This document shows, piece after piece, positions 18,085-37,810 of a DNA stretch of 64,000 bases (its first letter is position 1; each line of letters begins with the position of its first letter). The DNA lies in NCBI RefSeq assembly GCF_021183825.1, contig NZ_CP089211.1:1364001-1428000 (forward strand), written 5' to 3'. A model generated the notes under the pieces. That model was not told where the DNA came from, made no database searches, and was given only the letters and a program-made list of their open reading frames with translations. The stretch is from Sinomicrobium kalidii. Its GTDB lineage: Bacteria > Bacteroidota > Bacteroidia > Flavobacteriales > Flavobacteriaceae. A program made the position numbers and the translations under genes.

Positions 18085-18184
18085 TAAAAGTATTGGTAGC
18101 CCGGGAAGTTTTAACTGTAATCCTTATAGAACTATTTCTAACCGGGAGTAGAACTTATTCTATAAGACTGTAGAACTCATTCTA
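18085..18184 (-). promoter_or_regulatory. Promoter with triple TAGAAYNNRTTCTA array (array A)
   Basis: Three 14-bp palindromes, TAGAACTATTTCTA (18127-18140), TAGAACTTATTCTA (18149-18162) and TAGAACTCATTCTA (18171-18184), are each separated by 8 bp, giving a 22-bp pitch. On the minus strand a -7-like box TACTTTTA (18085-18092) follows after 34 nt. The predicted start near 18077 would give a leader of about 230 nt to the T9SS-adhesin operon. Same architecture as arrays at 19.85, 34.85 and 37.75 kb. Confidence 0.65.
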
Positions 18185-18223
18185 ACACAATCGCAATGCA
18201 CTGTATTTATACCAAATACAGTC

Positions 18224-18560
18224 GGATCAATCCTAAAAGTTGTGGATATTGTCGGGGTTCAGACCGTAGGGCACAAGAGGTACGACTTGCGATTTATGAT
18301 ATAGTTCTTTTTTGTTACAGGGTTGTTAATTGAGTTATTGAATTCATGCGTGATGCCTAAATAACTGAAATACAATTTCACGGCGTAGTTTGGTTTTTTG
18401 TAAATGAAGGCAGGCAGGAAACCGGAAACGATCCCGGGTTTACGATATATCAGCCTCACATATAACATTCAACCAAAAAAGATTCGTGTATCCGTGGCAA
18501 AACCAAAACCGGAAACTTACAACAAACGAAAAACCCCACAACCTTTGCCCCTGATCCACA
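18224..18560 (-). repeat. Dispersed intergenic repeat, copy A
   Basis: Read on the minus strand this stretch matches 36243-36709 (+ strand) over nearly its whole length, for example TTTTGGTTTTGCCACG, ATATATCG, CCCGGGATCGTTTCCG, TTTCCTGCCTGCC, TTATTTAGGCATCACGCATG, TCCACAACTTT and AGGATTGATCC. Copy A is shorter than copy B because of internal indels. Ends read TGGATCAGG...GGATTGATCC, a short inverted-repeat tendency (TGGATCA). There is no transposase; it may be a MITE-like or other non-autonomous repeat. Confidence 0.75.
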
Positions 18561-18772
18561 CAATCTTTAAATGTTAGCAAAAATAATGATCAGCTTATTG
18601 GTATCCCCGGAAAAAACCGGGTCAAAACAACTGATACATACAAAAAACCATTTTCCGGGATTTTTAAGGTAGCCTGCCGGAAAGAATATACACGAATATA
18701 CAGGACAACATAAAAAATAAGGAAGATAAACCGAATATTACTATGCGTAACTAAAAAGTAGTTACGGATATT

Positions 18773-18974
18773 TCATGGCTTTCTTTTCCTGAAGAAAAAG
18801 GTGAACAGAAACAGTCCGAACAACAGCATAAAAATTTCGCCCATACCTATTGCTTCCCAAAATCTGTAAGTTATAATCAGGAATATTCCTCCCCGTACTT
18901 ATAATAGCAAGTACAGACACCGTTAAAGAAAAGATGCGTATCAAGGCTCCTGCAAAAACAACTATATACCTCAT
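18773..18974 (-). pseudogene. Possible frameshifted small membrane protein
   Basis: From an ATG at 18974 the first frame reads MRYIVVFAGALIRIFSL and continues hydrophobic to about residue 28. A one-base shift near 18895 then gives a second hydrophobic segment (GIFLIITYRFWEAIGMGE, then FMLLFGLFLFTFFF) ending RKRKP-stop. The 202-bp length is one base off a multiple of three, consistent with a single indel. Joined, this is a protein of about 67 residues with two membrane helices and a positive tail. No family is recognised. It could also be chance in AT-rich DNA between repeats. Confidence 0.3.
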
Positions 18975-19444
18975 ACAATTCAAATCAGCTTCCCGGAGAC
19001 AAGCCCAAGGGATATTCAAAAAATACAAAACATTGATTTATTCCCGGGGCAGGCAACACAACACCACAAACACCCGCCACCGGGAAAGCAATCAATACTT
19101 AAACGGTGTTCACTGAACACCAAGAAGGCAAAAGGTAAAGTATTCCGATCCGGTAATTCACAAGAATATCCCTGAAACCGTACCCGACCCTGCCTGCTTT
19201 ACCTCCTTCTTTACTGACAGAAGAACAGAAACGATATTGCAAGGCCATATCTAAATTTCTCTTTTTACATTTAACTGCACCTCAACAGTAACCCCCGGGA
19301 TAATACCGCTTGAACCCTGTTCCGACAGCAATCCGGGGGCGACTGAAAGGCTAAAGAATCACAAAATGTTTATCACGACAGTGCGGTAATTCACAACAGA
19401 TGACAAGATGATCCGAATTCTCTATGCTCATATTGCCCTCCCTG
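18975..19444. other. 470-bp intergenic stretch with one strong palindrome
   Basis: No credible coding frame was found. The only striking element is a perfect 8+1+8 palindrome, GGTGTTCA-C-TGAACACC, at 19105-19121, which looks like an operator but has no obvious promoter beside it. Confidence 0.5.
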
Positions 19445-19759
19445 TCAAAACCAGCTCCTTTTACCTGCCTGATAGGTTTGATAAAACGCTTCATCAGACC
19501 TGGTCAGGTAAATTATACCTTCAACGAGCCCTATCAGCCCGCCGAAGCCGAACGTCACTGCTGTAAAAACAAGCTGTACGATCCCTTCTTTTATATAACC
19601 TAAAACAAATTTATGTATTCCAAGAAAGCCCACGAATATGGCCAGGACCCCGATCAATATCCTTTTACTGCCGTTTTCCGGCAGCAATACTCCCCGGGAT
19701 GCGGCTCCACACTCCCCCCTTTCGGGGGGATCTGTCATTCCCTTGTTTGTCGAACTCAT
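19445..19759 (-). CDS. TM2-domain membrane protein
   Basis: The protein has 104 residues. An N-terminal polar stretch (about 1-32) is followed by KRILIGVLAIFVGFLGIHKFVLGY (positively charged entry, helix 1, then the G-x-H-x-F-x-L-G-Y motif of TM2 proteins), then a second helix, VFTAVTFGFGGLIGLVEGI, and a short tail. TM2 proteins are small two-helix membrane proteins; the bacterial function is generally unknown. The gene stands alone and its promoter region (19814-19891) carries two of the TAGAAYNNRTTCTA palindromes that also precede the adhesin operon, a small membrane protein and a sensor kinase, so it may be co-regulated with them. Confidence 0.85.
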   Translation of the reverse strand: MSSTNKGMTDPPERGECGAASRGVLLPENGSKRILIGVLAIFVGFLGIHKFVLGYIKEGIVQLVFTAVTFGFGGLIGLVEGIIYLTRSDEAFYQTYQAGKRSWF

Positions 19760-19813
19760 GGACTAAAAACTGTATTTTTCATAACACTGTAAAATGTTTT
19801 GATCAAGACGCTG

Positions 19814-19891
19814 CGAAGATATGTCACAACAACACTTTCAACATAAAAAACAAGGTAGAACAAGTTCGAATACTGCTTAGAACTTGTTCTA
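19814..19891 (-). promoter_or_regulatory. Promoter with double TAGAAYNNRTTCTA array (array B)
   Basis: TAGAACAAGTTCGA (19856-19869) and TAGAACTTGTTCTA (19878-19891) have 8 bp between them (22-bp pitch). On the minus strand the -7-like box TATCTTCG (19814-19821) follows after exactly 34 nt; the predicted start near 19806 is about 47 nt before the TM2 start codon. No -7 box at matching distance is seen on the + strand, so the array points to the TM2 gene and not to the divergent CI-like gene. Confidence 0.65.
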
Positions 19892-20152
19892 TAATTTTCT
19901 TTGTGAATCTCCCAAAAACCTGAAATGTCACGAAAAGGAGCATCGCTGAATATTACGTGAAACACCTGGAAATCAGCACCTGGAAAGCACAGAAATATAC
20001 TTTACCCCCCTGTTTTCACAAAAAAAATGATTAAATTTGAATGATTTTTAGCTGTTGATCTTATAATGCCATGAAATAATTATTCACCAGAGATCGCAGT
20101 AGAACAGATTTAGCCCCTACCTGCTGAGCTGTTTAAAATTAAAAGCTACCCC

Positions 20153-20884
20153 ATGAAAAGAACACCACAGACCGCAGATCTGGATGGAGGAGGTGTCGTT
20201 TTGGAAATACCTGCCGTATTAAAACGTCTCAAGAAACATCTGGACATCAGAACCAATGCAGAATTATCGAGTATATTGGACGTAAAGCCCAATACCATTT
20301 CCACCTGGAAAAAAAGGAACACTCTCGATTACCCACGTGTACTCGCCCTGTGCAAAACATACAGCATAGATATACACCAGCTCTTTTTTAACAGGCCGGG
20401 AACAGATACACCATTCCCGGGCAGGAAAGACAAAAAAGGGTTTAGTGTAGTTACGAGGGATACTTATTTTCAGTATGTTTCACAATGCAATAAAGAAAGT
20501 TTTGTCGGGAGCCTGCCAAAGTTCCACTTTCCTTTTATTTCGGGAAACAATATCAGGGCTTTTCAGGTTGTAGGGTCCGCCATGGCACCCGTATTAAAAG
20601 ACAGTGACTTTGTTGTAGGGGAATATGTCGACGCCGACACAACCGATATGGTAAACGGAAACATCTATGTTCTGGTGAGTAATGTACGGGGAATTTATAT
20701 TTGCAGGATCCGGAAAGACCCCAAAGACAATAAGGTTATACACTTGATAAGAGATAACGAAACTAAAAATACATTGTCGGAAGTAAAAATGATGGCCGAC
20801 GAGATCATAGAACTCTGGGAGGTAATATCTGTATTTTCACTGGACCTGATAGGGAATAACAAAACAAAAAATTCTGACCATTAA
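20153..20884 (+). CDS. CI-like HTH regulator with S24-type C-terminal domain lacking catalytic residues
   Basis: The protein has 243 residues. Residues about 18-80 form a phage CI-repressor-type helix-turn-helix (VLKRLKKHLDIRTNAELSSIL, then VKPNTISTWKKRNTLDYPRVL). Residues about 135-225 fit the LexA/CI S24 peptidase fold (FQVVGSAMAPVLKDSDFVVGEY, NGNIYVLV). In active S24 proteins the nucleophile sits in a GDSM motif; here it reads GSAM, so Ser is replaced by Ala, and the usual partner Lys appears to be replaced (IYICRIRK). Autocleavage is therefore unlikely and the domain may serve for dimerisation or ligand sensing. The gene stands alone, divergent from the TM2 gene. It is a candidate, though unproven, binder of the palindrome arrays in this window. 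Confidence 0.85.
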   Translation: MKRTPQTADLDGGGVVLEIPAVLKRLKKHLDIRTNAELSSILDVKPNTISTWKKRNTLDYPRVLALCKTYSIDIHQLFFNRPGTDTPFPGRKDKKGFSVVTRDTYFQYVSQCNKESFVGSLPKFHFPFISGNNIRAFQVVGSAMAPVLKDSDFVVGEYVDADTTDMVNGNIYVLVSNVRGIYICRIRKDPKDNKVIHLIRDNETKNTLSEVKMMADEIIELWEVISVFSLDLIGNNKTKNSDH

Positions 20885-20925
20885 TATGCCTTATTTCTTT
20901 ATCGGTGTATTTCTTCCCCGTACGT

Positions 20926-21180
20926 CTAGTTTTCCCCGCCCTTTTGCCGTATCTTTTTTTGCAGTTCTTCAAACTGGTTTTCCGCTTCGCTGTCTTCAAA
21001 CGGGGAACGTTCACTCGAAAGGTCCATATCGTCCCAGTGCTCTTCCATCCAGTATTTGATTTCCCCTTCGGAAGCGGGGTCATTCACTATTGCCGCAAGC
21101 TGTTCAAATTCTTCCCGGGATATGGTATTTTCCCGGAATTTCTCCAAAAGTACTTCTATCAATGCTCTATGTCGATTCAT
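20926..21180 (-). CDS. Small FecR-N-like (anti-sigma cytoplasmic domain) protein
   Basis: The protein has 84 residues, all helical and charged: MNRHRALIEVLLEKFREN, TISREEFEQLAAIV, EGEIKYWMEEHW. This matches the short cytoplasmic N-terminal helical region of FecR-type anti-sigma factors of Bacteroidetes (LL-x-K-y...T-x-E-E...L...M-x-x-x-W), but the membrane helix and periplasmic FecR domain are absent. A paralogue lies at 26275-26493 (shared LL.K...TI(S/T)R.E..QL and IK..M(E/D)EHW). It follows the alpha-oxoamine synthase gene by 61 bp on the same strand. A cytoplasmic sigma-factor-binding role is an inference from the similarity. Confidence 0.7.
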   Translation of the reverse strand: MNRHRALIEVLLEKFRENTISREEFEQLAAIVNDPASEGEIKYWMEEHWDDMDLSSERSPFEDSEAENQFEELQKKIRQKGGEN

Positions 21181-21241
21181 AGCTTCGTGAATTTAATAAG
21201 AAAGTCGTATGTTTTGTCGGGCCACATTTAAAGTTTCCTTT

Positions 21242-23671
21242 TTATTTTTCCCGCATGGCTCCCATCAACTCCATCGAAAAATTGTCCTTGGCCTGGATAT
21301 AGGCTACTTTCGGGATAACCTTTGCCCCTATTTTTCTTTTTTCAAAAGCGGCCGTCAACCCGAAATCTATCCTTTGAAATCCGAGATTCCCCGCCCGTTT
21401 TACGGTCTGATACAACATCTGTCTGTATAACTGGTACTCCCGAGCATATTTATAATTCATTCCGATAAATGCGGGAACATACGTATGCCTGCCATTCCTG
21501 TAACAAAACATTACCCCCAAAGGTACGCCATCTTTTTGTTTATTGTATTTCTTTTTCAAGGAAAGCACCATAAATTCCCAGGACGGATGCCCCGACATGG
21601 TCTTAAAAAGTTTTTCCGGAAAAGAGAACATATTAAGACCATAATTGTTGTTTCTCACATTTTCGAAAAGGCGCATATAAACAGCTATCTCGTTTGTGGT
21701 GGCCGTTTTCCTGAAATCCACCTCAAAGAATTTTTCATAGGGCGCGACTTCCTTCCTGAAATGTTTCCTGGACCGGGAAGAAAGTGAAGCTACGTAAGCT
21801 TCGGTCCCTTTCCAGGACAAGTCTTCCACAACACAGGAATCGGGCATGGCCATTTTTATGAACCCCAGGTTGTGGAATACCCGGTTGAGTTGTTCTCCGT
21901 CAACAAAATCGCGGAGCACCAACATGGAAGTATCCTTTTTCTGATCTACTGTTTCCAGCTTTTCCAAAAGCTGTCTTACGGCTTCACGCCATTGCGGATG
22001 TGTGGTGTCCAGGTAGCAATGTTGCCCTTCGGTAAACAAGGAACCCATACTCAGCACCCGGGAGGTGAGATGATAGGGCTCCTGCTTTCGCTTTTCCTCC
22101 AGCTTCACGGAAACGGATGTGGGGGCCAGCATGTCTTCTTTCCAAAGCGCAAGGGTGAAAAATGTGGCCAGTACCGGTTTACCGTTTTTATCCCTGATCA
22201 TAAAATAATAAAAGGACCAGTTGTGTTCGGGTTTCATATTTCCGCAAAACGCTTTTTCCAGGAACATGAGGCCATCCCAGTCATAAACACCCTTACCGGC
22301 AAACAGTGCGTTCCACTCCTTTTTGTTGACCCCCGCGACGGTGGTTTCCATTTGCATATCCAACGCTACACCCCTGCCCGTTCCGTCCGGGTTTTCCCCG
22401 GCCTCGTTCAACGGCATACGAAATGCCCTTCTTACCCTGTTGAGTGAAGTATGCGTCTCTTCCAGGGCCTTTGGATAATGGTATATCAGAGCGTCCGCCA
22501 GGTGTTTCATATCTTCCTCCTCGTTGTGCCTGGAGATGGTAATCCGTATTCCCGTATTTTTTACCGGGGCCCCGGGATATATGCCCAGGTTAACAAAAAG
22601 CCCTTCCCGCATCAGCCGCCTTACCAGTTTATAACCCGTTACGGGCATACCGGTACCGATATAGAATACCGGGCAATCATTACGCTCTACCAGGGGAAGT
22701 TCTGTTTTTTCCAGCAACCCGTTAAAATAACTGATCTTATGTAACAATTCGGCCTGTAAGCTGTAAATCTCCGGAGACAAATGAATATCTGCCGAAGCAA
22801 CAGCAGCGGCCACGGATGCAGGTTCCAGTTGTGCTGAGAAGGTCAGCGGCCCGCCAAAATTCCGGATTTTCCGGTACATTTTCACATCCGGGCATACCAG
22901 TACCGCCCCGCTGGCGCCGAATGTCTTGCTCAGCGTACCGAACAGGAGCGTATTTTCCGGAAGTTCCTTCAGCATGTGCAATACATAGCCCGTACCATTC
23001 TTTCCTATCCAGCTCATACCGTGTACATCGTCAAAATATAAATGCAACTGTGGGTATTTATTGCACAGTTCCCGCAGTCCCGCTATGGGGGAGCAGTCCC
23101 CGTACATGGAATACACCCCATCGGCCATAAACCATATTCTCCGGCATTTTGAAGACAGGTCGCGGATCTTCTTTTCCAGCATGTCGAGATTATTGTGCCG
23201 GATCATTTCTACCGGTACCCCGCGTACTTTTAAAAGCTGAGTTGCATTTTGTACACTCCAGTGTACCTGGTGATCCAGGATCACACCGTCTTCATCCCTC
23301 ACGGCAGTAGGAATTACCCCAATATGCCCCAATGTGCTGTTTTTGGTAATCACCACGGGGTAGCCATACATCCTGCGGATCTTTTCCTCCAGTTCACGGT
23401 ATAACGGATGGGATATATAGGTCCTGGAAAGCGGAAACTGCGTACCGAAGTTGAAGATGGCGCAGGCCGCGGCATGTTTGAGACGGGAATCCTGTTCCAG
23501 GCCAAGGTAGCCCGTAGTACCAAAATGCAGGAGGTCTTTACCGTCTATTCTTATTTTCCTTCCGCCAAAACTGTCACCCTCGGCATAGAGGTGAAGCACT
23601 CCCGCCTTTGTGGCATCGGTAAAAACCCCGTCCACGGTATCCAGAAAATTATTGTGTTTGATTTTTGCCAT
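21242..23671 (-). CDS. Alpha-oxoamine synthase / GNAT-type acyltransferase fusion
   Basis: The protein has 809 residues; the start at 23671 (MAKIKHNN) is chosen because AGAAGGGA sits just upstream. Residues about 10-410 are a PLP-dependent alpha-oxoamine synthase: DHQVHWSVQNA (stacking His), DDVHGMSWIGKNGTG, and GTLSKTFGASG with the PLP lysine, plus a C-terminal Arg-rich TGIRITISR motif. Residues about 450-809 resemble a large GNAT/FemAB-like acyltransferase (SRSRKHFRKEVAPYEKFFEVDF, GVMFCYRNGRHTYVPAFIG, IDFGLTAAFEKRKIGAKV). Family members condense an amino acid with acyl-CoA or acyl-ACP (serine palmitoyltransferase, KBL, BioF, cysteate acyltransferase). A fused acyltransferase suggests making and then N-acylating an oxoamine lipid such as a sphingolipid or sulfonolipid; the substrate is not readable from sequence. 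Confidence 0.88.
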   Translation of the reverse strand: MAKIKHNNFLDTVDGVFTDATKAGVLHLYAEGDSFGGRKIRIDGKDLLHFGTTGYLGLEQDSRLKHAAACAIFNFGTQFPLSRTYISHPLYRELEEKIRRMYGYPVVITKNSTLGHIGVIPTAVRDEDGVILDHQVHWSVQNATQLLKVRGVPVEMIRHNNLDMLEKKIRDLSSKCRRIWFMADGVYSMYGDCSPIAGLRELCNKYPQLHLYFDDVHGMSWIGKNGTGYVLHMLKELPENTLLFGTLSKTFGASGAVLVCPDVKMYRKIRNFGGPLTFSAQLEPASVAAAVASADIHLSPEIYSLQAELLHKISYFNGLLEKTELPLVERNDCPVFYIGTGMPVTGYKLVRRLMREGLFVNLGIYPGAPVKNTGIRITISRHNEEEDMKHLADALIYHYPKALEETHTSLNRVRRAFRMPLNEAGENPDGTGRGVALDMQMETTVAGVNKKEWNALFAGKGVYDWDGLMFLEKAFCGNMKPEHNWSFYYFMIRDKNGKPVLATFFTLALWKEDMLAPTSVSVKLEEKRKQEPYHLTSRVLSMGSLFTEGQHCYLDTTHPQWREAVRQLLEKLETVDQKKDTSMLVLRDFVDGEQLNRVFHNLGFIKMAMPDSCVVEDLSWKGTEAYVASLSSRSRKHFRKEVAPYEKFFEVDFRKTATTNEIAVYMRLFENVRNNNYGLNMFSFPEKLFKTMSGHPSWEFMVLSLKKKYNKQKDGVPLGVMFCYRNGRHTYVPAFIGMNYKYAREYQLYRQMLYQTVKRAGNLGFQRIDFGLTAAFEKRKIGAKVIPKVAYIQAKDNFSMELMGAMREK

Positions 23672-23797
23672 TCCCTTCTCTTTCCGGTGAAACAAGAAAT
23701 AAAGTACTATTCGGGTTTTCCGGTCTTTCAGTATTTACAACAAACTAAAAAATTTAACCCGATCCGGCACATAGATTTTATCCGGTTACTTAAAAAA

Positions 23798-23863
23798 ATC
23801 CTTCTCAGATAAGAAAAAATCCCTCTCAGATAAGTTTTGAGTTCGAATTGTACGTTACTATTC
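23798..23863 (+). promoter_or_regulatory. Promoter with 21-bp-pitch direct repeat pair (site 1)
   Basis: ATCCTTCTCAGATAAG (23798-23813) and ATCCCTCTCAGATAAG (23819-23834) are direct repeats offset by exactly 21 bp. A -7-like TACTATTC (23856-23863) follows 21 nt later, pointing to the STAS-like gene at 23934. Same layout as sites at 25551 and 25839. Two half-sites in tandem, two helical turns apart and close to the core promoter, is the classic arrangement for AraC-family activators. Confidence 0.65.
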
Positions 23864-23933
23864 CACCGGGTAACAATTAATTGCCCGTATACATGAATTT
23901 TGTTAAATTGCCAGGGAATATACCCCTCAGATT

Positions 23934-24341
23934 ATGATGTACTCAAAAGATTTTGATCGTAACATACCTTTTTTCGAAAATGAGTATGCCAAATTCTGGG
24001 TTGACCAGAATATTCTCTTTTATGTATATAAAACAGATATAATAGTAAACCTGGAAGCGGCAAAAAAGATTGTCGCCGACAGGATTGCATTTCAAAAGGA
24101 GAAAAGCTATCCGGTATTTTGTGACATCCGCGGTATTAAGGATGTCAATAAAACAGCCAGGGATTACCTTGCCATTGAAGGATCTACTCTCACCAAGGCG
24201 GTTTCCATATTGGTCGACCCTCCCATAAGCCGTGCCATTCTGGATTTTTACCTAAAAATGAGCAAACCCCTTATTCCTACGGAAGTATTTACAGAAAGGC
24301 ATGAAGCCATTCAGTTTTTAACACCTTATATAACATTATAA
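23934..24341 (+). CDS. STAS/SpoIIAA-like small protein (DUF7793-type)
   Basis: The protein has 135 residues. The pattern (YAKFWVDQNILFYVYKTDIIVNLEAA, then YPVFCDIRGIKDVNKTARDYLA, AVSILVDPPISRAILDFYL, FTERHEAIQFL) has the alternating strand/helix order of STAS-like proteins common in Bacteroidetes, where they often sit beside AraC-type regulators, as here. The function is unknown, possibly stress- or density-related signalling. A second ATG directly follows the first (23937), so either could be used. The promoter carries a 21-bp-pitch direct repeat pair, suggesting control by the PAS-AraC protein encoded just downstream. Confidence 0.8.
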   Translation: MMYSKDFDRNIPFFENEYAKFWVDQNILFYVYKTDIIVNLEAAKKIVADRIAFQKEKSYPVFCDIRGIKDVNKTARDYLAIEGSTLTKAVSILVDPPISRAILDFYLKMSKPLIPTEVFTERHEAIQFLTPYITL

Positions 24342-24541
24342 TGGAAAACAGGGAGATACGAAATTGCACAAACAACTTACATTATGTAACTTAGCTGGTA
24401 CCCCCTACTTCTTGATAAAATCGTCATATTGCTTATGCAAGCTATAATTATTCTTAAAACGACATTGGATGAACAGGTGATTTTCGACACATAAGCTGTT
24501 GGATTCATCCTTTTTGGCAACCTTAAACCTACCCCGGATTT

Positions 24542-25510: not shown

Positions 25511-25550
25511 AAAGTCGTCCTGTTTAACTTTTTAAACAAAGGGACAAAAA

Positions 25551-25615
25551 ATCCCTTTCAGATAAGCCCCGCTCCTTCTGAGACAAGTTTTTGCATATTT
25601 ATTTCACTATCTTCG
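25551..25615 (+). promoter_or_regulatory. Promoter with 21-bp-pitch direct repeat pair (site 2)
   Basis: ATCCCTTTCAGATAAG (25551-25566) and CTCCTTCTGAGACAAG (25572-25587), offset 21 bp, are followed after exactly 20 nt by TATCTTCG (25608-25615), a good -7 box. No protein gene follows; the next strong element is the hairpin at 25727-25787. Confidence 0.65.
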
Positions 25616-28299: not shown

Positions 28300-28716
28300 A
28301 TGGACAGGTCTTTAATGCTCGATCAAATAAAACACCACTATCGCTTTAAAAGGGATGTTGACCTGGCACGGCACCTGGGCATAAAACCACAGGCCCTGTC
28401 GAACTGGAGGAAACGCAATTCGTTTGATGCGGAACTTATTTACACCAAATGTGACGAACTCAATTCTTCCTGGTTGCTCAACGGAGAAGGGCCCATGCTC
28501 CGGAAAGACCTGGAAACCCCGTTACCGGTCCACGAAGCGGGCAGTACTTATGTACTCCGGGAAAAGATCAATGCCATGGAAGGACAGATCGAAGCTTTGA
28601 AACAGGCCAACGAAGCGCTCCGGGAAACCAACAGCACTTTGCGGGATACCCGGGAAATATATAAAAAAAGGATCGAGGAACTGGAATCGGGAAAAACCGG
28701 TCCCGATCGTCCTTAA
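28300..28716 (+). CDS. CI-like HTH protein with C-terminal coiled coil
   Basis: The protein has 138 residues. Residues about 5-65 are a phage CI-repressor-type HTH (KHHYRFKRDVDLARHLGI, PQALSNWRKRNSFDAELIY, LNSSWLLNGEGPML). Residues about 85-130 form a heptad-like coiled coil rich in Glu, Lys and Asn (REKINAMEGQIEALKQAN). There is no S24 domain, so it is not an autocleaving repressor; the coiled coil probably gives dimerisation. A 15-bp palindrome (28192-28206) about 95 bp upstream could be its own operator. Its HTH is similar in kind to that of the regulator at 20153. The GNAT gene follows 81 bp downstream on the same strand. Confidence 0.85.
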   Translation: MDRSLMLDQIKHHYRFKRDVDLARHLGIKPQALSNWRKRNSFDAELIYTKCDELNSSWLLNGEGPMLRKDLETPLPVHEAGSTYVLREKINAMEGQIEALKQANEALRETNSTLRDTREIYKKRIEELESGKTGPDRP

Positions 28717-30573: not shown

Positions 30574-30819
30574 GGGGTATTAGGTTTTTCGGGTTTAACC
30601 TCCAAACCTAAAACCATTGCCCCGCATTTCCTTACGGATTTCCACAAAAGGGGGGAAAGAAAAAGGCTGCCTTTAAACAAGTTTTGCAATTCCATTGTTG
30701 CTTAATCATCCGGCCGGACCGGTCCCCCATATATCCAAAAGCAGATACACCGGTGCCGGAAAGCAACACGGACCACTTGTTTCAAAGACAGCCATTAACC
30801 GCTTTTTGAATCACAAAAC

Positions 30820-31485
30820 CTATATCAACCTCAGGTCTTTAAGGATTGTAATGAGATGAATCGTAGTATTCGCATTAAAATCCTCTTTCAATTCTTTCAG
30901 TCTTTTTTCAATAGAGCTTTTACTGCTGGGTGCAATACCGTCTTTTTTAAAACGCTCTTCTATTTCTTCCTGTGTAAACCCGTTGGCCAGAAGTTTAAGC
31001 AGGGCCAGTTCGTACTCGCGAAGCGTAAGAAAATTTCTGTGTTGTACTGCGGCCTCTACCTGGGCGGAAAGATAGTTGTTACCCCCGTATACCGTCCTGA
31101 TGGCTTTTTCAAGATAGAACAGGCCGTTCCGGCCCTTACAGGCATAACCGTGTATTTGACCGGTATCCCACAAGGCCCTTACGGTTTGCGGGTGATCTTC
31201 TACAGAATATACTATGATTCGCAATTCCGGGAATTCACCGGCAACAACTGAAATAAGCTCCTGTCCAGAAGTCAGTTTTTCCGCCCGGTGATCGGGTTTA
31301 AAAGACAGGTCGCAGATCAACAGGTCGAAAGGGGAACCGTCCAATGCGGCGCGTCTTGCTTTCAGGTAAGCGTCGTCACAGTAGGACGCATGAAATACCT
31401 CCGGCCTTCCCAGCTTTTGCAAAACAGCAGACATTCCCCTGTTTATACTGTCAATATCCTCGGCAACTAAAATTTTCTTAAACAT
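30820..31485 (-). CDS. Response regulator, NarL/LuxR-like
   Basis: The protein has 222 residues from MFKKILVAED (31485); a longer frame upstream overlaps the kinase gene and is not needed. Residues 1-130 form a receiver domain (ILVAEDIDSINRGM, FDLLICDLSFKP with the acceptor Asp, RIIVYSVEDHPQ, GYACKGRNG). Residues about 150-222 form the DNA-binding helical domain (FLTLREYELALLKLLANGFTQEEI, SSIEKRLKELKEDF), a divergent LuxR-type HTH. The gene lies 10 bp after the TPR histidine kinase, forming a two-component pair. Target genes are unknown. Confidence 0.88.
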   Translation of the reverse strand: MFKKILVAEDIDSINRGMSAVLQKLGRPEVFHASYCDDAYLKARRAALDGSPFDLLICDLSFKPDHRAEKLTSGQELISVVAGEFPELRIIVYSVEDHPQTVRALWDTGQIHGYACKGRNGLFYLEKAIRTVYGGNNYLSAQVEAAVQHRNFLTLREYELALLKLLANGFTQEEIEERFKKDGIAPSSKSSIEKRLKELKEDFNANTTIHLITILKDLRLI

Positions 31486-31495
31486 ACGCAAAAGA

Positions 31496-33424
31496 TTAGC
31501 ACGGCAACTGAATTTCAGCTCTAAAGCCTTTTTCAGTATCAAAGGTAATGCTTCCTTTTACGAATAAAATACGGTTTTCCGTATTCCGGAGCCCGTTGCC
31601 GTATTTTAACTTTCCCGAAGGTATGCCCACACCATTGTCTGAGTACGTGATTTGCAGTGTTTTAGGTGTTTTGGCGAAGGTTATGGCCACAAGTGTGGCC
31701 CCGCTGTATTTTTTCATATTGGTCATTAATTCCTGCAACACCCGGTACAGGACGATCTTCTTTTCTGCGGAAATTTCCTGCCAGGGGATGTCTTCCAGGC
31801 CCAGGATGACGATCTTGGCCGTTCCCTCAGGATAACTGCCCAGCATTGACGCCAGCTCTTCCTCAAACCTGTTGCCGGTATCAATGCTGGTATTTTCCCG
31901 GGAAATATCCCTGGTAAGGGTATAGATATTTTCCAGTTTGTCGAGGATCTCCTTATTGGAATTATCCTCTCCCAGTTGTGCCATAACATTATACACACCG
32001 TTGGCCAGCTCGTCGTGTACGCGCTTGGAAAGGCGGATCTCGGTATTGTATATGGCTTCCTGTTTTTCCCTTGAAATCTTTGCCTGCGCCCTGGTGCGTT
32101 GCAGCGCATACCACAAATACGAGATCACGGCCAGCCCGATGACAACCGTAAACAGGATCAGGTTTTCCGTTTTCTTCTTTTTTAACAAAAGCTCCGCCTT
32201 TTCCTTTTCGGTCTTATATTTTAGTTTTTGTTGTTCTTCCCTGACATAATCGAATTTTATTTTGGCAAAAGCGTTTTTCACCCTGAGCTGGGCAATACCA
32301 AGACTGTCACTCAGCACGGCATAGCGTTTGGCGTATTCCTGACTTTCCGAAGGACCGGCAAGGTATACAAGTTTTTCCAGCGCCTTTATCTGACCTTCCG
32401 GATTTTTGTATTGTGTAGAAACCTCCAGGTATTTTTTTGCGTACGCAACAGCCCGGGCATTAGCTATCGGCTCAAAAAAGTCGGAAAGGTGGGCATAACT
32501 GGCCTGCAATCCTTCCATATCATTCTTTTCCAGTCTCATTTTTAATGCTTCCTCAAGCGCGCTGCGAACATCCGTCTCCGGGTTCTGCAACCATTTGGTA
32601 TAAGCCAGATTATCAATAATCCTCGCCCTGAGAATCGTATTTTTAGCGGATACTTCATCGAGAATCCCCGTCAGTATCCCGACAGCCGAATCAAATTCGC
32701 TCTTGTCCCTTTTAACATTGGCAATATTGTTTAAAATAATAATGCTGTCTTTTGCTGAAGACACAAACCTTAACGCGTTTTTATATTCTTCTATGGCATA
32801 ATCATATAATTTCTGTTTTCTATAGCTTATTGCTATACGATTATAAGCACTGGATAAATAAAGAGAGTCTTTCTTACCATCCAGATAACTCAAACTCTCC
32901 GTAGCATTTTCCTGACTACCGGAATAATCGCCCAAATGTCCCAGGGCTATTGCCATCTCCACCAGGCGCCTCCCTACCTGGGAGCTGTCCCCGACAGCCA
33001 GATAGAATTTTTTTGATTCAATGGCATTTCTAAAGCTTTCTTCCGGGTTCTTCAAATAACTGAAGATTCTGCTCTTCCTGTAGTATCCCTTGGCAAGATA
33101 TAGCGTATCTGACTGAAGTCCGGAGAATTTAATAAGCTCGTCGGCGTAATACAGGGAACTGTCGTATTGCCCCAGGGTATTGTGAAGGTATATTTTCTGG
33201 GACAGTATTTTTAATAACAGCGGATCGCGATGATCCGCAACCCGGGTTAAGGCCCGGTTCATCAAAAGCAATTTTTCATCCTTGTCCCGGGTATCTTCAC
33301 CGGAACGCCGGTAAAAGTAGGCTGCGGAATCCTTCGCTTTTCCCGTTGTCCCCTGCAGGGGCATCCCCTGACGGTCACAGCCGGCTAAAACGATAAAGAA
33401 CAGTACTAAAAAACTGAATTTCAT
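31496..33424 (-). CDS. TPR-repeat sensor histidine kinase (lipoprotein signal)
   Basis: The protein has 642 residues. The N-terminus MKFSFLVLFFIVLAGC gives a lipobox-like site. Residues about 30-380 carry tetratricopeptide-type helical repeats (Y-S-A-Y-N-R-I-A-I-S-Y-R pattern). One membrane helix is near residues 400-425 (LILFTVVIGLAVISYLWYAL). The phosphoacceptor is His470 in KRVHDELANGVYN, the HisKA_3/NarX type. The HATPase domain at about 540-642 has N-box QELMTNMKKYS and DNGVGIPSG. It phosphorylates the regulator encoded 10 bp downstream. A lipobox together with an internal membrane helix suggests outer-leaflet-anchored TPRs in the periplasm, but the Cys may simply be part of a signal anchor. 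Confidence 0.9.
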   Translation of the reverse strand: MKFSFLVLFFIVLAGCDRQGMPLQGTTGKAKDSAAYFYRRSGEDTRDKDEKLLLMNRALTRVADHRDPLLLKILSQKIYLHNTLGQYDSSLYYADELIKFSGLQSDTLYLAKGYYRKSRIFSYLKNPEESFRNAIESKKFYLAVGDSSQVGRRLVEMAIALGHLGDYSGSQENATESLSYLDGKKDSLYLSSAYNRIAISYRKQKLYDYAIEEYKNALRFVSSAKDSIIILNNIANVKRDKSEFDSAVGILTGILDEVSAKNTILRARIIDNLAYTKWLQNPETDVRSALEEALKMRLEKNDMEGLQASYAHLSDFFEPIANARAVAYAKKYLEVSTQYKNPEGQIKALEKLVYLAGPSESQEYAKRYAVLSDSLGIAQLRVKNAFAKIKFDYVREEQQKLKYKTEKEKAELLLKKKKTENLILFTVVIGLAVISYLWYALQRTRAQAKISREKQEAIYNTEIRLSKRVHDELANGVYNVMAQLGEDNSNKEILDKLENIYTLTRDISRENTSIDTGNRFEEELASMLGSYPEGTAKIVILGLEDIPWQEISAEKKIVLYRVLQELMTNMKKYSGATLVAITFAKTPKTLQITYSDNGVGIPSGKLKYGNGLRNTENRILFVKGSITFDTEKGFRAEIQLPC

Positions 33425-33455
33425 GGGGTGTTTTTGATCCGTTCCCCAAATTACT

Positions 33456-33487
33456 AAAAAATAAAAAGCCGCGAACGGTTTCGCGGC
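33456..33487 (-). terminator. Strong intrinsic terminator after the small lipoprotein gene
   Basis: GCCGCGAA (33468-33475) and TTCGCGGC (33480-33487) form an 8-bp stem with a 4-nt loop. On the minus strand it is followed by a T-rich tract (TTTTTATTTTTT). It separates the lipoprotein gene from the sensor kinase start at 33424. Confidence 0.85.
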
Positions 33488-33510
33488 CTTTATTCCTAAA
33501 AAATCAGTAC

Positions 33511-33672
33511 CTAGTCTTCCGGTTCTTCAGGTGGAATTATATCTCCGTCTTCCCCTTCTGTTGCCTGTGTTTCATAAAGCGATTCATTTTCGGCCACGTC
33601 GTCATAAGTGCACGATGACAGGGACAGGCTGTTTACAACAAGGACTATAAGTATAAAAAGTAGCTTTTTCAT
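33511..33672 (-). CDS. Small acidic lipoprotein (53 residues)
   Basis: The protein starts MKKLLFILIVLVVNSLSL and has the lipobox LSSC (Cys21), then a short acidic tail (CTYDDVAENESLYE... ending PPEEPED). This is a complete lipoprotein signal with a mature part of 33 residues. It has its own strong terminator just downstream. No family is known; similar tiny lipoproteins are frequent and poorly annotated in flavobacteria. It lies upstream of the TPR kinase in the same direction and downstream of a highly structured non-coding stretch. Confidence 0.72.
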   Translation of the reverse strand: MKKLLFILIVLVVNSLSLSSCTYDDVAENESLYETQATEGEDGDIIPPEEPED

Positions 33673-33709
33673 GTGTGAATAAAATTTTGATTAAACAAAT
33701 GGGATGGCT

Positions 33710-33995
33710 TTCCGGGTATAAGCACCCGGAAGTCTTCTCGGGACGGGCAAACCCGTGGGCCCCGAACTGGTCGGTAAAAGGGAGTACTCCTTGTTTTTCG
33801 GGAAGTGAAAATCCTTATGCGGCGGCCTTTAGCTGCTTCCCGACAACTATCGGTCACTGCAATTGTGGATTTCCGTAAAAACGGGGCCTTATCTTTTGCT
33901 ATGTTAGCTACGCCGAACAAAGCCCCGTTCTGTCAGCGAAATAAGAACACGATTGTCAAAAGGTCACAGACAGAGACAAGACATCTTTTTGACAA
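33710..33995. other. Highly structured intergenic region (six hairpins)
   Basis: No credible gene lies between 33673 and 34065. In order: TTCCGGGT/ACCCGGAA (33710-33731); TCGGG-ACGGG/CCCGT...CCCGA (33738-33765); GGAGTACTCC (33781-33790); TCGGGAAG/CTTCCCGA with inner GCGGC/GCTGC (33798-33843); AACGGGGC/GCCCCGTT (33880-33929); TTGTCAAAA/TTTTGACAA (33953-33995). It may be a structured RNA, a leader of either flanking gene, or the remains of a mobile element. Confidence 0.5.
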
Positions 33996-34065
33996 TTCGC
34001 GGACACCGCCCCACCACAACATAACTAACTAATAATCAAAACATCACATCTAAAACACATTCGAA

Positions 34066-34590
34066 ATGGAAAAATGGATTCAAAAACTTATGGAGTCCGT
34101 ATTTGACAAAACCGCTAAAAAATCAATGGAAACCTCTATAAGCGGAAAGTCAAAATACCTCTCACAAAAAATCGAGGAAGACTTCGGTTTTGCGCTAAGC
34201 GACAGGAATATCAACAGGTATTACAAAGGATATATCACCCGTGAAAAAAAGAAGATAAAACCCAATAAGGCCACACTTAACGCCCTTGCCGGGTATATTG
34301 GCTATTGTAATTTTGAAGATTTTATCCGAAAGAACGAAACCGGGGAGGAAGAGGTCATACGAAAGTTTTCCGCGCAGACAAGCAGGCTTTACAGGCAACT
34401 GGTAATCAGCTTTGTGGTAAATATTATTCTTATAGGCGGACTGCTCTTTTTTATTTCGAAGTACTACAAAAAGAACTGTATGATCTGGATAGACGACCAC
34501 TACGAGAAAATACGGTGCTCCGGCCTTGAACTGGAAACGGGACTCAATCAACAGGTCCTGGAGAAATTTAAAAAAAATAGCGATCACTGA
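34066..34590 (+). CDS. Membrane protein of unknown family, frame broken at A8 tract
   Basis: The frame yields 174 residues. Residues 1-100 are charged and helical (KYLSQKIEEDFGFALSDRNI, RYYKGYITREKKKIKPNKATL, GYCNFEDFIRKNETG), suggesting a DNA- or protein-binding helical domain. One membrane helix lies at about residues 112-130 (LVISFVVNIILIGGLLFFI). The frame ends ...KFKKNSDH just after eight consecutive A (34570-34577). Reading one base later at this run joins it to a well-formed continuation ending at 34774, giving a 235-residue protein. So the gene is frameshifted, phase-variable, or carries a sequencing indel. The orientation predicted is an N-terminal cytoplasmic regulatory part and a C-terminal outside part. 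Confidence 0.65.
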   Translation: MEKWIQKLMESVFDKTAKKSMETSISGKSKYLSQKIEEDFGFALSDRNINRYYKGYITREKKKIKPNKATLNALAGYIGYCNFEDFIRKNETGEEEVIRKFSAQTSRLYRQLVISFVVNIILIGGLLFFISKYYKKNCMIWIDDHYEKIRCSGLELETGLNQQVLEKFKKNSDH

Positions 34591-34774
34591 TACCACTTCC
34601 TTCTTCAGGGGAGACCGGGCAGTCTTATGGTATACCGTGATCGACGGTGAAATCGAGTTTTTTACATTTCCGTGGATACACCCCGTAAGCAAAAAGGCGC
34701 TAAAGCCGGTAACTCCTTATATTTCAGAAATGTACATTCCGGAGGCACGGCACATCAAAATTGAAGAACGCTAA
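34577..34774 (+). pseudogene. Out-of-frame continuation of the preceding gene
   Basis: Read in the frame one base after the A8 tract, residues IAITDTTSFFRGDRAVLWYT, then GEIEFFTFPWIHPVS and EMYIPEARHIKIEER follow without interruption to a stop at 34774. The composition is that of a soluble globular domain and not a chance frame. It follows directly from the sequence before the tract (VLEKFKK), so it is the original C-terminus of the gene at 34066. Confidence 0.6.
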
Positions 34775-34831
34775 GGCGGTTGCCCCGGCCCATGGCAATC
34801 CCGGATACGGTTTTTGCACGGCAACAGGACA

Positions 34832-34909
34832 TAGAATTTATTCTACGGACTGTTCGAATTAGTTCTATGCCCCGGAGAAAGGCCCCCAGGGGAAAATAGC
34901 CTAATTTCA
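34832..34909 (+). promoter_or_regulatory. Promoter with double TAGAAYNNRTTCTA array (array C)
   Basis: TAGAATTTATTCTA (34832-34845) and TCGAATTAGTTCTA (34854-34867), 8 bp apart (22-bp pitch), are followed 34 nt later by the -7-like TAATTTCA (34902-34909). The predicted start near 34917 is about 42 nt before the small membrane protein at 34959. Confidence 0.65.
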
Positions 34910-34958
34910 CAGCACTTAAAAATCCGGAAAAGATTGTGGAAACCTTATTTTTTTATCG

Positions 34959-35144
34959 ATGAGAAAAATACTGACTCTGGCAGGAGTTGTTATATCCATC
35001 TATTCCATAACAACTATTCTGGGGTATGTCTTTGAATATCGCACCATAGCAACTAACGGAACAGGCTATGTGTGGGGAAATTTTATTTTGTTGCTCATAG
35101 GCTTTGTACTGATACTCTATGCCAGGGGTATTGCAGACAAATAG
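34959..35144 (+). CDS. Small two-helix membrane protein
   Basis: The protein has 61 residues: MRKILTLAGVVISIYSITTI forms helix 1, a short polar loop (EYRTIATNGTGYVWG) follows, then helix 2 (FILLLIGFVLILY) and the tail ARGIADK. No family is recognised. The gene is real in appearance: it has its own promoter with a double palindrome array (array C) at a fixed distance, and good start context. Since the same array drives an adhesin operon, a TM2 protein and a sensor kinase, it may belong to an envelope-related regulon. Confidence 0.65.
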   Translation: MRKILTLAGVVISIYSITTILGYVFEYRTIATNGTGYVWGNFILLLIGFVLILYARGIADK

Positions 35145-35239
35145 CCGTAACAAGGCCCTGACACAACGTATAAAAAACGAATTGCAAACAACCAACCGTT
35201 GATTCCTGAAGTCCCGGAGCAGGCTTTTGGGAAATTTGG

Positions 35240-35319
35240 CCGCCCTGCGAACCCCGTTTAATGCAGGGACAAACTCCGGGATATTCGGGAATTACTTACA
35301 GGGCGGAAAACCCTGTTTT
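35240..35319 (+). promoter_or_regulatory. Possible attenuator in the parA leader
   Basis: CCGCCCTG (35240-35247) can pair with CAGGGCGG (35299-35306), while CCCTGC can instead pair with GCAGGG (35263-35268), and ACAGGG (35298-35303) can pair with CCCTGT (35311-35316) followed by T4. The stems are mutually exclusive, like terminator and antiterminator. It lies just before the ParA start codon. Confidence 0.35.
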
Positions 35320-35337
35320 ACTTAAACACATTATTAT

Positions 35338-36117
35338 ATGGGTAAGATCATAGCTATTGCAAATCAGAAAGGCGGGGTGGGGAAAACCACCACCTCGGTA
35401 AACCTGGCAGCTTCACTTGGGGTTCTGGAAAAAAAGGTATTACTTATAGACGCAGATCCCCAGGCCAACGCCACTTCCGGACTGGGAATTTCGGTAGATG
35501 ATGTGGATACGGGTACCTATCAGCTACTGGAACACACCGTGAAAGCAAAAGACGCCATTATCCGGACCGGGTCGCCTAACGTAGACCTGATCCCGGCCCA
35601 CATAGACCTTGTAGCCATAGAAATAGAACTGGTGGATAAGGAAAGAAGAGAGTACATGTTTAAAGGAGCCCTCGACGGGGTTGAAGACCGGTATGATTAC
35701 ATTCTCATAGATTGTGCACCGTCCCTGGGATTGCTTACGCTGAACGCACTTATTGCATCACACTCCGTTATCATTCCCATTCAGTGTGAATACTTTGCGC
35801 TGGAAGGCCTCGGGAAACTGCTTTCCACCATTAAAAGCGTGCAGAGATCACATAATCCCCAACTGGATATTGAAGGAATGCTGCTCACCATGTACGATTC
35901 CAGGCTCCGGTTATCCAACCAGGTGGTGGAAGAAGTACGCCAACATTTCAGCGACATGATCTTCGACACCATTGTGCAACGCAACATACGGCTCAGTGAA
36001 GCCCCGAGTTACGGCGAAAGTATTATCAATTACGATGCCACCAGTAAAGGTGCAGCAAGCTACCTGAGCCTGGCTCACGAAATTATCAGTAACAACATCA
36101 CGGCAGCACAACAGTAA
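35338..36117 (+). CDS. parA: ParA/Soj-type chromosome partitioning ATPase
   Basis: The protein has 259 residues, the normal length of chromosomal Soj. The deviant Walker A is KGGVGKTTTSVNLAA (residues about 10-24) with the ParA signature lysine; Walker A' is IDADPQANATSGLG; Walker B is YILIDCAPSLGLLTLNAL; and QRNIRLSEAPSYGESI is the conserved C-terminal motif. In flavobacteria parA is usually followed by parB; here 592 bp without a gene and a dispersed repeat follow, then genes on the other strand, so no parB partner is adjacent. It drives ATP-dependent positioning of ParB-bound origins. The leader contains mutually exclusive hairpins. Confidence 0.93.
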   Translation: MGKIIAIANQKGGVGKTTTSVNLAASLGVLEKKVLLIDADPQANATSGLGISVDDVDTGTYQLLEHTVKAKDAIIRTGSPNVDLIPAHIDLVAIEIELVDKERREYMFKGALDGVEDRYDYILIDCAPSLGLLTLNALIASHSVIIPIQCEYFALEGLGKLLSTIKSVQRSHNPQLDIEGMLLTMYDSRLRLSNQVVEEVRQHFSDMIFDTIVQRNIRLSEAPSYGESIINYDATSKGAASYLSLAHEIISNNITAAQQ

Positions 36118-36242
36118 AGGCACCCCGCAATTCTTTTCACTTCTGAAACACGGCACAAAACAGCCCTGTTTTGTTCGGAGGCCCTGTACCTAACTCTCAA
36201 AACGCAGCGCATCGGGGAACAAACCCATCTGGCGGGATTAAA

Positions 36243-36709
36243 ATGGATCAGGATCAAATCAAAGATTGTTGGGGTTTTTCGCTTGTTGTAAGTTTCCCGT
36301 TTTGGTTTTGCCACGAATACACGAATGTTTTTTGAATTGAATGTTGTATATGAGGCCGATATATCGCGAACCCGGGATCGTTTCCGATTTCCTGCCTGCC
36401 CTCATTTACAAAAAAACAAACCACGCTGTATTGAAAGGTACAGCGGTTTTGGGAGGCTGTGACATTGTATTTTAGTTTTTTGGTTATTCAGTTATTTAGG
36501 CATCACGCATGAACTCAATAACCTGTCGTTAACCTGTTAACCCAACAACAAGACTATAATTTTGCTGCAATAAATGCCCTTTAATCGAGGCCAATACGAA
36601 CACTGTAACAAAAAGGAACTATTTTATCAACACAAGTCATACCTCTTATGTCCTGCTGTCTTAGTCTGAACGAACCCCAGCAATGTCCACAACTTTCAGG
36701 ATTGATCCA
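36243..36709 (+). repeat. Dispersed intergenic repeat, copy B
   Basis: The stretch matches 18224-18560 in inverted orientation over most of its length, and includes extra segments absent from copy A (for instance CTGTATTGAAAGGTACAGCG at 36428-36447). A piece of that extra segment recurs at 61868-61900. Ends read TGGATCAGGATC and CAGGATTGATCCA. It fills almost the whole gap after parA and stops at the next gene. Confidence 0.75.
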
Positions 36710-37108
36710 TTAAAATTCCGTAGGAAGAAGCAGGGTACGGCCTATAAAATAAAAACACATGGAAAACCCGGGAGTTACAGGCACATGCACATTGGCGGGA
36801 ACCCTGATCTTTTTCAGAAGCTCCCTGCTCCTTTTGCAGTATTCTATCCAGCAATCGTTATTGCGCCCCCTGCAAAGTCGTATAACTATAAACTCGTCTT
36901 CCCTTGACAATGCAAATGCCCGCATGGCCATATCCAGGAAAAGCTTGTGCTCTTCAAAAAGGGACATCGCATATTTTATACCATCGGTATAATAAAACGG
37001 AAAATCGGGATGCAGGTTTAATCCGCCCGAACTCTTAAAGTTCTCTATCTTCTCCCGGACAACCTTACTTTTACTTTCTTCTTTTATATAATGTGCCAAT
37101 ACCTCCAT
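36710..37108 (-). CDS. Hypothetical protein in a two-gene unit
   Basis: The protein has 132 residues, starting MEVLAHYIKEESKSKVVREK. Recognisable features: a helical start, FPFYYTDGIKYAMSLFEEHKLF in the middle, a strand-rich core (DEFIVIRLCRGRNNDCWIEYC) and a hydrophobic end (PGFSMCFYFIGRTLLL). No family is recognised. It starts 4 bp after the stop of the 101-residue protein upstream, so the two are probably co-translated. Its end abuts the dispersed repeat copy B, and its last residues may have been altered by that. Confidence 0.5.
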   Translation of the reverse strand: MEVLAHYIKEESKSKVVREKIENFKSSGGLNLHPDFPFYYTDGIKYAMSLFEEHKLFLDMAMRAFALSREDEFIVIRLCRGRNNDCWIEYCKRSRELLKKIRVPANVHVPVTPGFSMCFYFIGRTLLLPTEF

Positions 37109-37112
37109 AAAT

Positions 37113-37418
37113 TCAAACGAGTTTTACCCTGCAAACGGAAACCATGTTATTGTGAAAATCTATTTCCAGGTAAATTTTGTAAGGCAGGCTTTTTATGTCC
37201 CGCACAAAATATTTCCATTGATCCACATGGTAATGATTGTATTCGTCGCCCAGAAGTTCCACGACTTCCTCCTTCGACTTTGACAGCAACACCCCGCCTT
37301 CCAGGATGTTTTTCAGGTGAGATATGCGTTGCTCCCTCCTGTTTTTCCACAATGAACTTTCAAATGAGCAGTGTTTGACTCGCAATAAAAGCATGACATA
37401 TTTGCAAAATACTGACAT
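37113..37418 (-). CDS. Hypothetical protein with BamE/SmpA-like domain pattern
   Basis: The protein has 101 residues. After a basic helical start (RVKHCSFESSLWKNRREQRIS) comes HLKNILEGGVLLSKSKEEVVELLGDE, then WKYFVRDI and YKIYLEIDFHNNMVSVCRVKL. This matches the helix-strand layout of small proteins with a BamE/SmpA-like fold (L-x-G-x-S-x-x-E-V-x-x-L-L-G), here without signal peptide or lipobox. Function unknown. It is first in a two-gene minus-strand unit, the second gene being 4 bp downstream. Confidence 0.6.
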   Translation of the reverse strand: MSVFCKYVMLLLRVKHCSFESSLWKNRREQRISHLKNILEGGVLLSKSKEEVVELLGDEYNHYHVDQWKYFVRDIKSLPYKIYLEIDFHNNMVSVCRVKLV

Positions 37419-37711
37419 CTCTTAATTTTTTCTGTTTATTGAAGTCCTGTTGTTCACACTAAAAAAAATTACTCAATCCTCTGTTCCTGTTGTGTATTTT
37501 CGTCTTGCTGTCCCGGGATAGTGCCGGGAAAAGAAAACCGGACAGAACAGTTTTTCCCATATTCGCAGTTCACAAGTTCGTTTTAAGCCCCCCGGCAAAA
37601 GGATCTCTTCCGGAGGGGCTTATCTAAACACTTGATTATGATATTAGGAAACGCTGTATTAACGTCGATATAAAAGTAGCAGCTATCTTTATTCTCCCAT
37701 AAAAAAAGACG

Positions 37712-37810
37712 TAGAACTAATGCCTTTCCCATGTAGAATAAATTCATTTTAAATGTAGAATAAGTTCTAAATATCGCGGGTGATTATTATTATTTTTTTT
37801 CGTATACTTG
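37712..37810 (+). promoter_or_regulatory. Promoter with triple TAGAAYNNRTTCTA array (array D)
   Basis: TAGAACTAATGCCT (37712-37725), TAGAATAAATTCAT (37734-37747) and TAGAATAAGTTCTA (37756-37769) stand at 22-bp pitch; the proximal copy is the best match. TATACTTG (37803-37810) follows after 33 nt. The predicted start near 37818 leaves a leader of about 155 nt before the propeller kinase. The rest of the 37419-37972 gap has no gene. Confidence 0.65.

Follow-up and report, generated by a model that had tools for sequence, protein, structure and literature searches.

Phased 22-bp palindrome arrays at adhesin and sensor-kinase promoters of Sinomicrobium: candidate operators of a two-component circuit

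How the giant adhesins of the type IX secretion system (T9SS) are switched on has, to our knowledge, been little studied. The question is raised by a 64,000-nucleotide stretch of the Sinomicrobium kalidii genome (contig NZ_CP089211.1, positions 1,364,001 to 1,428,000; hereafter the window), in which four arrays of a 14-bp palindrome lie at promoters of genes that include an SprB-like adhesin and a propeller sensor histidine kinase. Which genes do these arrays serve, and which protein reads them? The arrays, their geometry, their conservation, the genes behind them and their co-occurrence with these genes are read directly from the sequence. We consider it probable, with some reserve, that in Sinomicrobium the arrays serve as activator operators for a two-component circuit, in which the kinase would signal to RR227, a response regulator encoded near the window, and RR227 in turn to the array promoters.

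Palindrome arrays and their conservation

All ten palindrome copies described in the original prediction were present at the positions named there, grouped in four arrays (A to D, Table 1) with a pitch of 22 bp throughout. The prediction had called them copies of one palindrome; their positions stand, and exact identity to TAGAAYNNRTTCTA is limited to 5 of the 10, the others having one mismatch (at 18127, 19856 and 34854), two (at 37734) or three (at 37712). Each copy consists of 14-bp inverted heptads, which we read as TAGAAYN / NRTTCTA. When adjacent pairs with at most three mismatches in total were counted, five were found in the window at a pitch of 22, all other pitches between 15 and 40 gave zero, and 300 first-order Markov windows gave a single match in the same test. 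Single copies at two mismatches or fewer numbered 11, against a shuffle mean of 8.2 (not significant), and a looser two-copy core pattern with three mismatches occurred 8 times against 3.7. The array signal is the near-exact copies at an exact pitch, not the single palindromes.

A scan of the whole window genome (G000; 5,364,211 bp in one contig) with the two-copy pattern at three mismatches or fewer identified seven places, which make up six arrays, and the arrays do extend beyond the window: array E starts at genome position 1360291, 3.7 kb before the window, and array F at 4660165. The relatives were S. oceani (G001), S. sp. N-1-3-6 (G002, S. soli in the protein search), S. pectinilyticum (G003), a Sinomicrobium metagenome-assembled genome (MAG) of 3.0 Mb and 96% completeness (G004) and S. 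weinanense (G005). With the window's own genome included, arrays were found at orthologous promoters in five of the six Sinomicrobium genomes, the MAG having none at three mismatches. The fetched stretches of the five contain 27 arrays of at least two copies. By orthology these sort into six groups, with five arrays each in A, B, D and E, four in C and three in F. The pitch departs from 22 bp at the third copy of array A in S. pectinilyticum, which lies at 23 bp. The expectation that arrays lie outside genes held for 25 of the 27, which overlap no ATG-started open reading frame (ORF) of at least 120 amino acids (aa); the group D array of S. sp. N-1-3-6 and the group E array of S. weinanense do overlap ORFs, of 175 and 121 aa, respectively.

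Exact single copies number 13 in the window genome, eight of them inside the six arrays. No second copy was seen beside those at 529865, 1825089 and 4670168, and at 4787366 the second copy is degenerate and lies at 21 bp. The copy at 2347489 (L023:10489-10502) also lacks a second copy; it has a TACTTTTG box at 34 nt and precedes an ORF whose translation reads as a TPR/AraC-like regulator, making it a possible further member of the regulon.

Outside the genus, 6 of 34 genomes had one array match each at three mismatches, and one of the 40 genomes (G028) matched the reversed control. Around one of these outside matches (G006, stretch L055), 22 query proteins gave just one weak kinase match, at 28% identity. 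In a family-wide sample of 397 genomes searched at two mismatches, arrays were found in 3 of 3 Sinomicrobium, the window genome included, and in 3 of the 394 others. That the arrays are a product of chance or a spreading repeat can be given next to no credence. Single palindromes do occur near chance frequency, but the pitch statistics, a reversed-pattern control of zero in all six Sinomicrobium genomes and the occupation of orthologous promoter positions with diverged flanks all speak against it.

Promoter geometry and target genes

The original prediction placed a -7-like box 33 or 34 nt past the proximal edge of each array, and this is what we found in the window, at 34, 34, 34 and 33 nt for A, B, C and D, respectively. 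The geometry holds across the five genomes. With distances taken outward from either edge of the array, a TAnnTTTG box with at least five of six bases lies at 33 or 34 nt from an edge in 23 of the 27 arrays, and one with at least four of six in all 27 (on at least one side), the independent cases being nearer six than 27 since arrays in a group share descent. As a control, adjacent offset pairs within 0-104 that leave out 33 and 34 reached at most 4 of 27. The GTTCTA end was likewise confirmed for all four proximal copies of the window; it is not universal, as evidenced by the group E proximal copy, which is degenerate in all five genomes (two to three changes, ending in ..TACTA).

For the box alignment, 28 promoters were used (the 27 arrays and the single site at 2347489). 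Orientation and offset were chosen by best box score, so that the sharpness of the box in this alignment is partly due to construction; the controlled count is the 23 against at most 4 of 27, not the box-aligned profile. At the place where the usual -33/-7 spacing would put a -33 box, these 28 promoters showed no information peak (at most 0.32 bits per column); four of them have a TTG that begins 26 to 20 nt before the box, and there is a weak TT at -28/-27. The proximal site thus stands beside a poor upstream element, and the lack of a visible -33 signal suggests that the array promoters are activator-dependent. From the geometry and the form of the operator we infer, as had been proposed, a phased dimeric activator. 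With the flavobacterial box at -12 to -5, as given in PMC9723704, the centre of the proximal palindrome would fall near -53.

The predicted target set consists of the SprB-like adhesin operon (array A), the TM2 gene (B), the gene of the 61-aa protein, which from its sequence reads as a membrane protein (C), the propeller kinase gene, which adjoins gldN, gldM and gldL (D), an operon of the CI-like regulator R2 and an extracytoplasmic function (ECF) sigma factor, headed by array E, and the gene of a 490-aa protein (F). Strand and gaps suggest that the four genes behind array A, from the Ig/CHU_C gene to that of the second PorP/SprF protein, form one operon. An array is present wherever the gene is for the 490-aa protein (3/3 genomes; the S. 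oceani copy has an in-frame stop), the kinase (5/5), the 61-aa protein (4/4) and R2 (5/5), and also in all five genomes where the CHU_C gene was found. The TM2 gene was seen in S. kalidii, S. pectinilyticum and S. weinanense only, array B being present in five genomes.

Array D faces both ways. On its left, each of the five aligned genomes has a TAMTTTTA box, and in the three that allow a direct count (S. kalidii, S. sp. N-1-3-6 and S. pectinilyticum) it lies at 33 or 34 nt. The box is followed by 43 nt identical in four genomes and then by a hairpin whose stem sequence varies with the species; S. sp. N-1-3-6 does not share this element. The folds from the four genomes gave z values of -3.8, -4.4, -2.9 and -2.5, and among 200 shuffles of each, 0, 0, 2 and 1 folded as well. 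The candidate shows no evident terminator U-run, and a search of the window against Rfam at gathering score found 0 matches. This element (37573-37665) may be a small RNA of the regulon.

Table 1. Features of the window that bear on the palindrome arrays
Feature	Position	Strand	Basis
Array A, three copies of the 14-bp palindrome at a pitch of 22 bp; leftward promoter toward SprB-like adhesin genes	18127..18184	-	orthologous arrays in 5/6 Sinomicrobium genomes
Array B, two palindromes; reads leftward to TM2 gene	19856..19891	-	pattern search
Array C, two palindromes	34832..34867	+	pattern search
Array D, three palindromes, of which two degenerate; a box on either side	37712..37769	.	pattern search, alignment
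-7-like box TACTTTTA past array A	18085..18092	-	pattern, alignment
-7-like box TATCTTCG past array B	19814..19821	-	pattern, alignment
-7-like box TAATTTCA past array C, 4/6 consensus bases	34902..34909	+	identical in 4/4 genomes with 61-aa gene
-7-like box TATACTTG past array D, kinase side	37803..37810	+	pattern, alignment
Leftward -7-like box TACTTTTA, 33 nt past distal edge of array D	37671..37678	-	pattern, alignment
Candidate array-controlled small RNA	37573..37665	-	alignment, folding
Ig/CHU_C T9SS-substrate gene, first behind array A	15644..17884	-	Pfam
PorP/SprF protein, below-cutoff C-terminal TonB_C match; 4-nt gap to Ig/CHU_C gene, same strand	13417..15639	-	Pfam, ORFs
3753-aa giant adhesin, SprB-repeat / CHU_C, same strand	1987..13248	-	Pfam, ORFs
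Second PorP/SprF protein, behind giant adhesin	809..1951	-	Pfam, ORFs
TM2-domain protein	19445..19759	-	Pfam
61-aa protein gene, no Pfam match	34959..35144	+	ORF, relatives
Propeller sensor histidine kinase (D_kin), proposed RR227 partner	37973..41005	+	Pfam, relatives
R1, CI-like regulator (PF07022), judged unlikely binder	20153..20884	+	Pfam, relatives
-7-like box TAAATTTG before R1 (TAMATTTG in 5/6 genomes, not in S. oceani)	20032..20039	+	pattern, alignment

Candidate binders of the arrays

RR227 is a NarL/FixJ response regulator with Response_reg and GerE domains (Pfam), encoded about 4 kb outside the window at genome positions 1359280-1359960 (L018:5280-5963). Its orthologs in the four array-bearing relatives are 86-95% identical, and its recognition helix, KKSTVSTHKMRIFKKL, is identical in all five array genomes; in the MAG no ortholog was found, the best match being 31%. 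EvgA, one of the nearest proteins of solved structure, carries TVSTYKSRLMEKL at the corresponding helix, which counts for RR227. A large protein search gave four proteins at 85-95%, two of them from named Sinomicrobium, and after those nothing above 49% among the matches listed (82, E 1e-40). The nearest paralog of RR227 (42%) adjoins the nearest paralog of the kinase (35-36%) in S. kalidii and S. pectinilyticum, the sole holders of the pair. We prefer RR227 as the probable binder over R1, R2 and the protein at 30820 on three grounds: the operator has the form known for NarL/FixJ regulators such as BvgA and RcsB; nearly the same recognition helix as in the CI-like candidates is found in CI-like paralogs of the array-less genome and in paralogs whose genes have no array beside them; and the paralog of RR227 is paired in this way with that of the array-bearing kinase.

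Several observations weigh against RR227. There is no array before its own gene, array E lying behind it and before R2, so that positive autoregulation of the regulator itself was not seen; array D, on the other hand, precedes the gene of the proposed partner kinase. Pfam gave a weak HisKA match for this kinase, whereas NarL-type regulators more often pair with HisKA_3 kinases. Among solved structures, RR227 matches NarL best (73.8 bits), and the helix of NarL, TVKVHVKHMLKKM, is different; VraR comes next and EvgA only third (60.9 bits). The MAG also lacks the kinase (E 1e-100) and the 61-aa and 490-aa genes, and these other losses, together with its 96% completeness, mean that no choice between RR227, R2 and other lost genes can be based on its missing arrays. 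RR227 has a gldN-like neighbour in each of the four array-bearing relatives; in the MAG a gldN-like gene stands directly beside R1, and the fetched stretches showed no RR227, R2, sigma factor, adhesin genes or TM2 (adhesin genes and TM2 were not searched genome-wide). The adhesin-regulator block thus seems to be missing there as one piece, and its absence does not tell RR227 from R2. Finally, the paralogous-kinase block has no box at 33 or 34 nt, and its longer palindrome form occurs nowhere else in the six genomes.

It seems unlikely that R2, a CI-like protein (PF07022; genome 1360584-1361294), binds the arrays, its own included, and activates the regulon with the ECF sigma factor encoded behind it. 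An exact array E palindrome lies 284-301 bp before the gene in all five genomes that have R2, the array-less MAG has no ortholog, and a protein search gave five proteins at 69-100% (its own and four from named Sinomicrobium), the next being 45%. CI-type proteins can reportedly form higher oligomers on phased operators, as is said of phage 186 CI. Against R2, its recognition region is nearly identical in paralogs of the MAG (VRPNTISTWKKRN, VKPNTISTWKRRN, VRANTISTWKKRN), of 35 CI-like genes examined, the 25 left after setting aside the ten R1 and R2 genes of array genomes (24 further paralogs and the R1 of the MAG) all lack an array in the 600 bp upstream, and the paralog R3 is preceded by a different conserved element, AACGATTTTT-like repeats about 21 bp apart. 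Our own expectation, which is not a textbook rule, was that arrays would occur wherever the same CI-like recognition helix does, and this was not the case in the MAG or beside the other paralogs. Both R1 and R2 carry the helix-turn-helix (HTH) domain of CI-type repressors (PF07022) and stand next to an array in five of five array genomes, and yet binding by a CI-type protein appears less likely than binding by RR227. For R1, one of the two regulators that the original prediction offered, this is very unlikely indeed: array B starts 269-301 bp before its gene in those genomes, but the box of array B points away from it, the gene is kept in the array-less MAG, and it has a separate TAMATTTG box in five of the six genomes (the MAG included, S. 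oceani not). A repressor, or a protein encoded elsewhere, is quite improbable as the binder. Such a protein might be among the other regulators of the genome; on the other side, in 23 of the 27 arrays the site ends 33 or 34 nt upstream of a good -7 box, leaving the box free, and the absent -33 signal fits activation.

The other regulator that had been offered, a supposed NarL-type protein at 30820, was rejected as binder. It has no GerE match, and it was not found in three stretches of S. sp. N-1-3-6 (L049-L051; no genome-wide search was made there), which has arrays. It does lie near array C in the other four array genomes. The protein (30820-31542, minus strand) is response-regulator-like by a weak match, and its C-terminal part matches no Pfam model.

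Before the paralogous propeller kinase, conserved palindromes lie 22 bp apart by eye (L193:4730-4775 and its equivalent in L194). The palindrome is TAGAATTAAAACTA, with a second one centred 22 bp away by eye; it adds little support, and the block was rejected as a further operator for its wrong geometry and lack of more copies. Among the seven loci of the paralog comparison, a regulator of G028 is adjoined by one 22-bp pair with a 6/6 box, which had no control and was not counted. Beside RR227, the ORF at L018:3992-4894 (minus strand) occupies the place where the relatives have their second gldN-like gene, which is 68-70% identical to the window gldN at 41376-42275.

The CI-like family (PF07022) is expanded in the genus (L086-L107 and window 20153-20884), with 5 to 9 matches per Sinomicrobium genome, some of them confined to the HTH or to the LexA-like C-terminal part, and 0 or 1 in most other genomes. 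The window encodes one more small HTH protein of this family (PF07022), 138 aa long, at 28300-28716 (plus strand), with a 62% match also in the array-less MAG. The AACGATTTTT-like repeats before R3 occur in six genomes (L087, L094, L095, L096, L097, L098) and are perhaps R3's own operator. Outside the genus, 25 of 26 CI-like loci were scanned over 700 bp upstream (L155 left out): three had one single site at two mismatches, and a loose motif-free scan gave AT-rich palindrome pairs in 13 of the 25, one (L139) at 22 bp and none like TAGAAY. A PDB search with the profile of the R2 family returned 0 chains at E 0.01.

Known systems and the proposed circuit

The closest likeness is to BvgA of Bordetella, which like the candidate RR227 is a NarL/FixJ regulator. 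Its targets include fha, a large adhesin, as the proposed targets here include one, and bvgAS is positively autoregulated, unlike the candidate regulator gene here, which has no array. As described in PMC7250471, BvgA binds at Pfha and Pptx as head-to-head dimers centred 22 bp apart on one face of the DNA; the primary site of Pfha, TAAGAAATTTCCTA, is like TAGAAYNNRTTCTA made of 14-bp inverted heptads, and the proximal site stands by a poor -35. The BvgA sites other than the primary one are weak, whereas most copies here are recognisable; the phylum, the promoter class (-7 TAnnTTTG) and the proximal centre near -53 also differ. The RcsAB box of enterobacteria (TAAGAATATTCCTA) is likewise a 14-bp palindrome of similar letters bound by the NarL/FixJ family, and PMC12388358 reports 13-bp intervals in one promoter, in contrast to the 22-bp arrays. 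In Flavobacterium psychrophilum, the remFG-sprCDBF operon also places an SprB adhesin under dedicated control, but through sigma-54 and SM5 (TAnnTTGY) promoters (PMC9723704) rather than TAnnTTTG-type promoters with arrays. PorXY-SigP of Porphyromonas gingivalis reportedly ties, in a similar way, a two-component system and an ECF sigma factor to T9SS genes.

Binder, phosphorylation, activation and operon structure are what we infer from the sequence, and the circuit would run as follows. The sensor kinase encoded at 37973 would phosphorylate RR227, two molecules of which would bind head to head on each palindrome, one to either heptad, so that two or three dimers align every 22 bp on one face of the DNA. 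The proximal dimer, near -53, would recruit RNA polymerase to promoters of the sigma-A type, in which a -7 box is present and a -33 box cannot be recognised. Expression of the SprB-like adhesin operon and of the TM2, 61-aa and 490-aa genes would thereby be turned on; through array D the kinase would activate its own gene in a positive feedback, and activation of the R2/ECF-sigma operon would add a second tier.

Such a binding mode is known from Bordetella, and a Bacteroidota regulon with such arrays appears to be new; neither a regulon of this kind in Bacteroidota nor this regulon itself was found in the searches made of the open-licence literature. A bolder idea, which we hold tentatively and with more doubt than belief, is that BvgA-style 22-bp phased arrays arose separately in Bacteroidota, where they control an SprB-type adhesin, a kinase, a second-tier CI-like/ECF-sigma operon and a small RNA from a two-way array. 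This would make them a genus-specific, autoregulated adhesin switch with a promoter logic unlike that of the F. psychrophilum sprB operon. Operator, promoter geometry, targets, kinase and regulator candidate can here be read together from the sequence and tested at once. If the proposal is true, a phased 22-bp array on a TAnnTTTG promoter would show how activators engage the unusual RNA polymerase of Bacteroidota.

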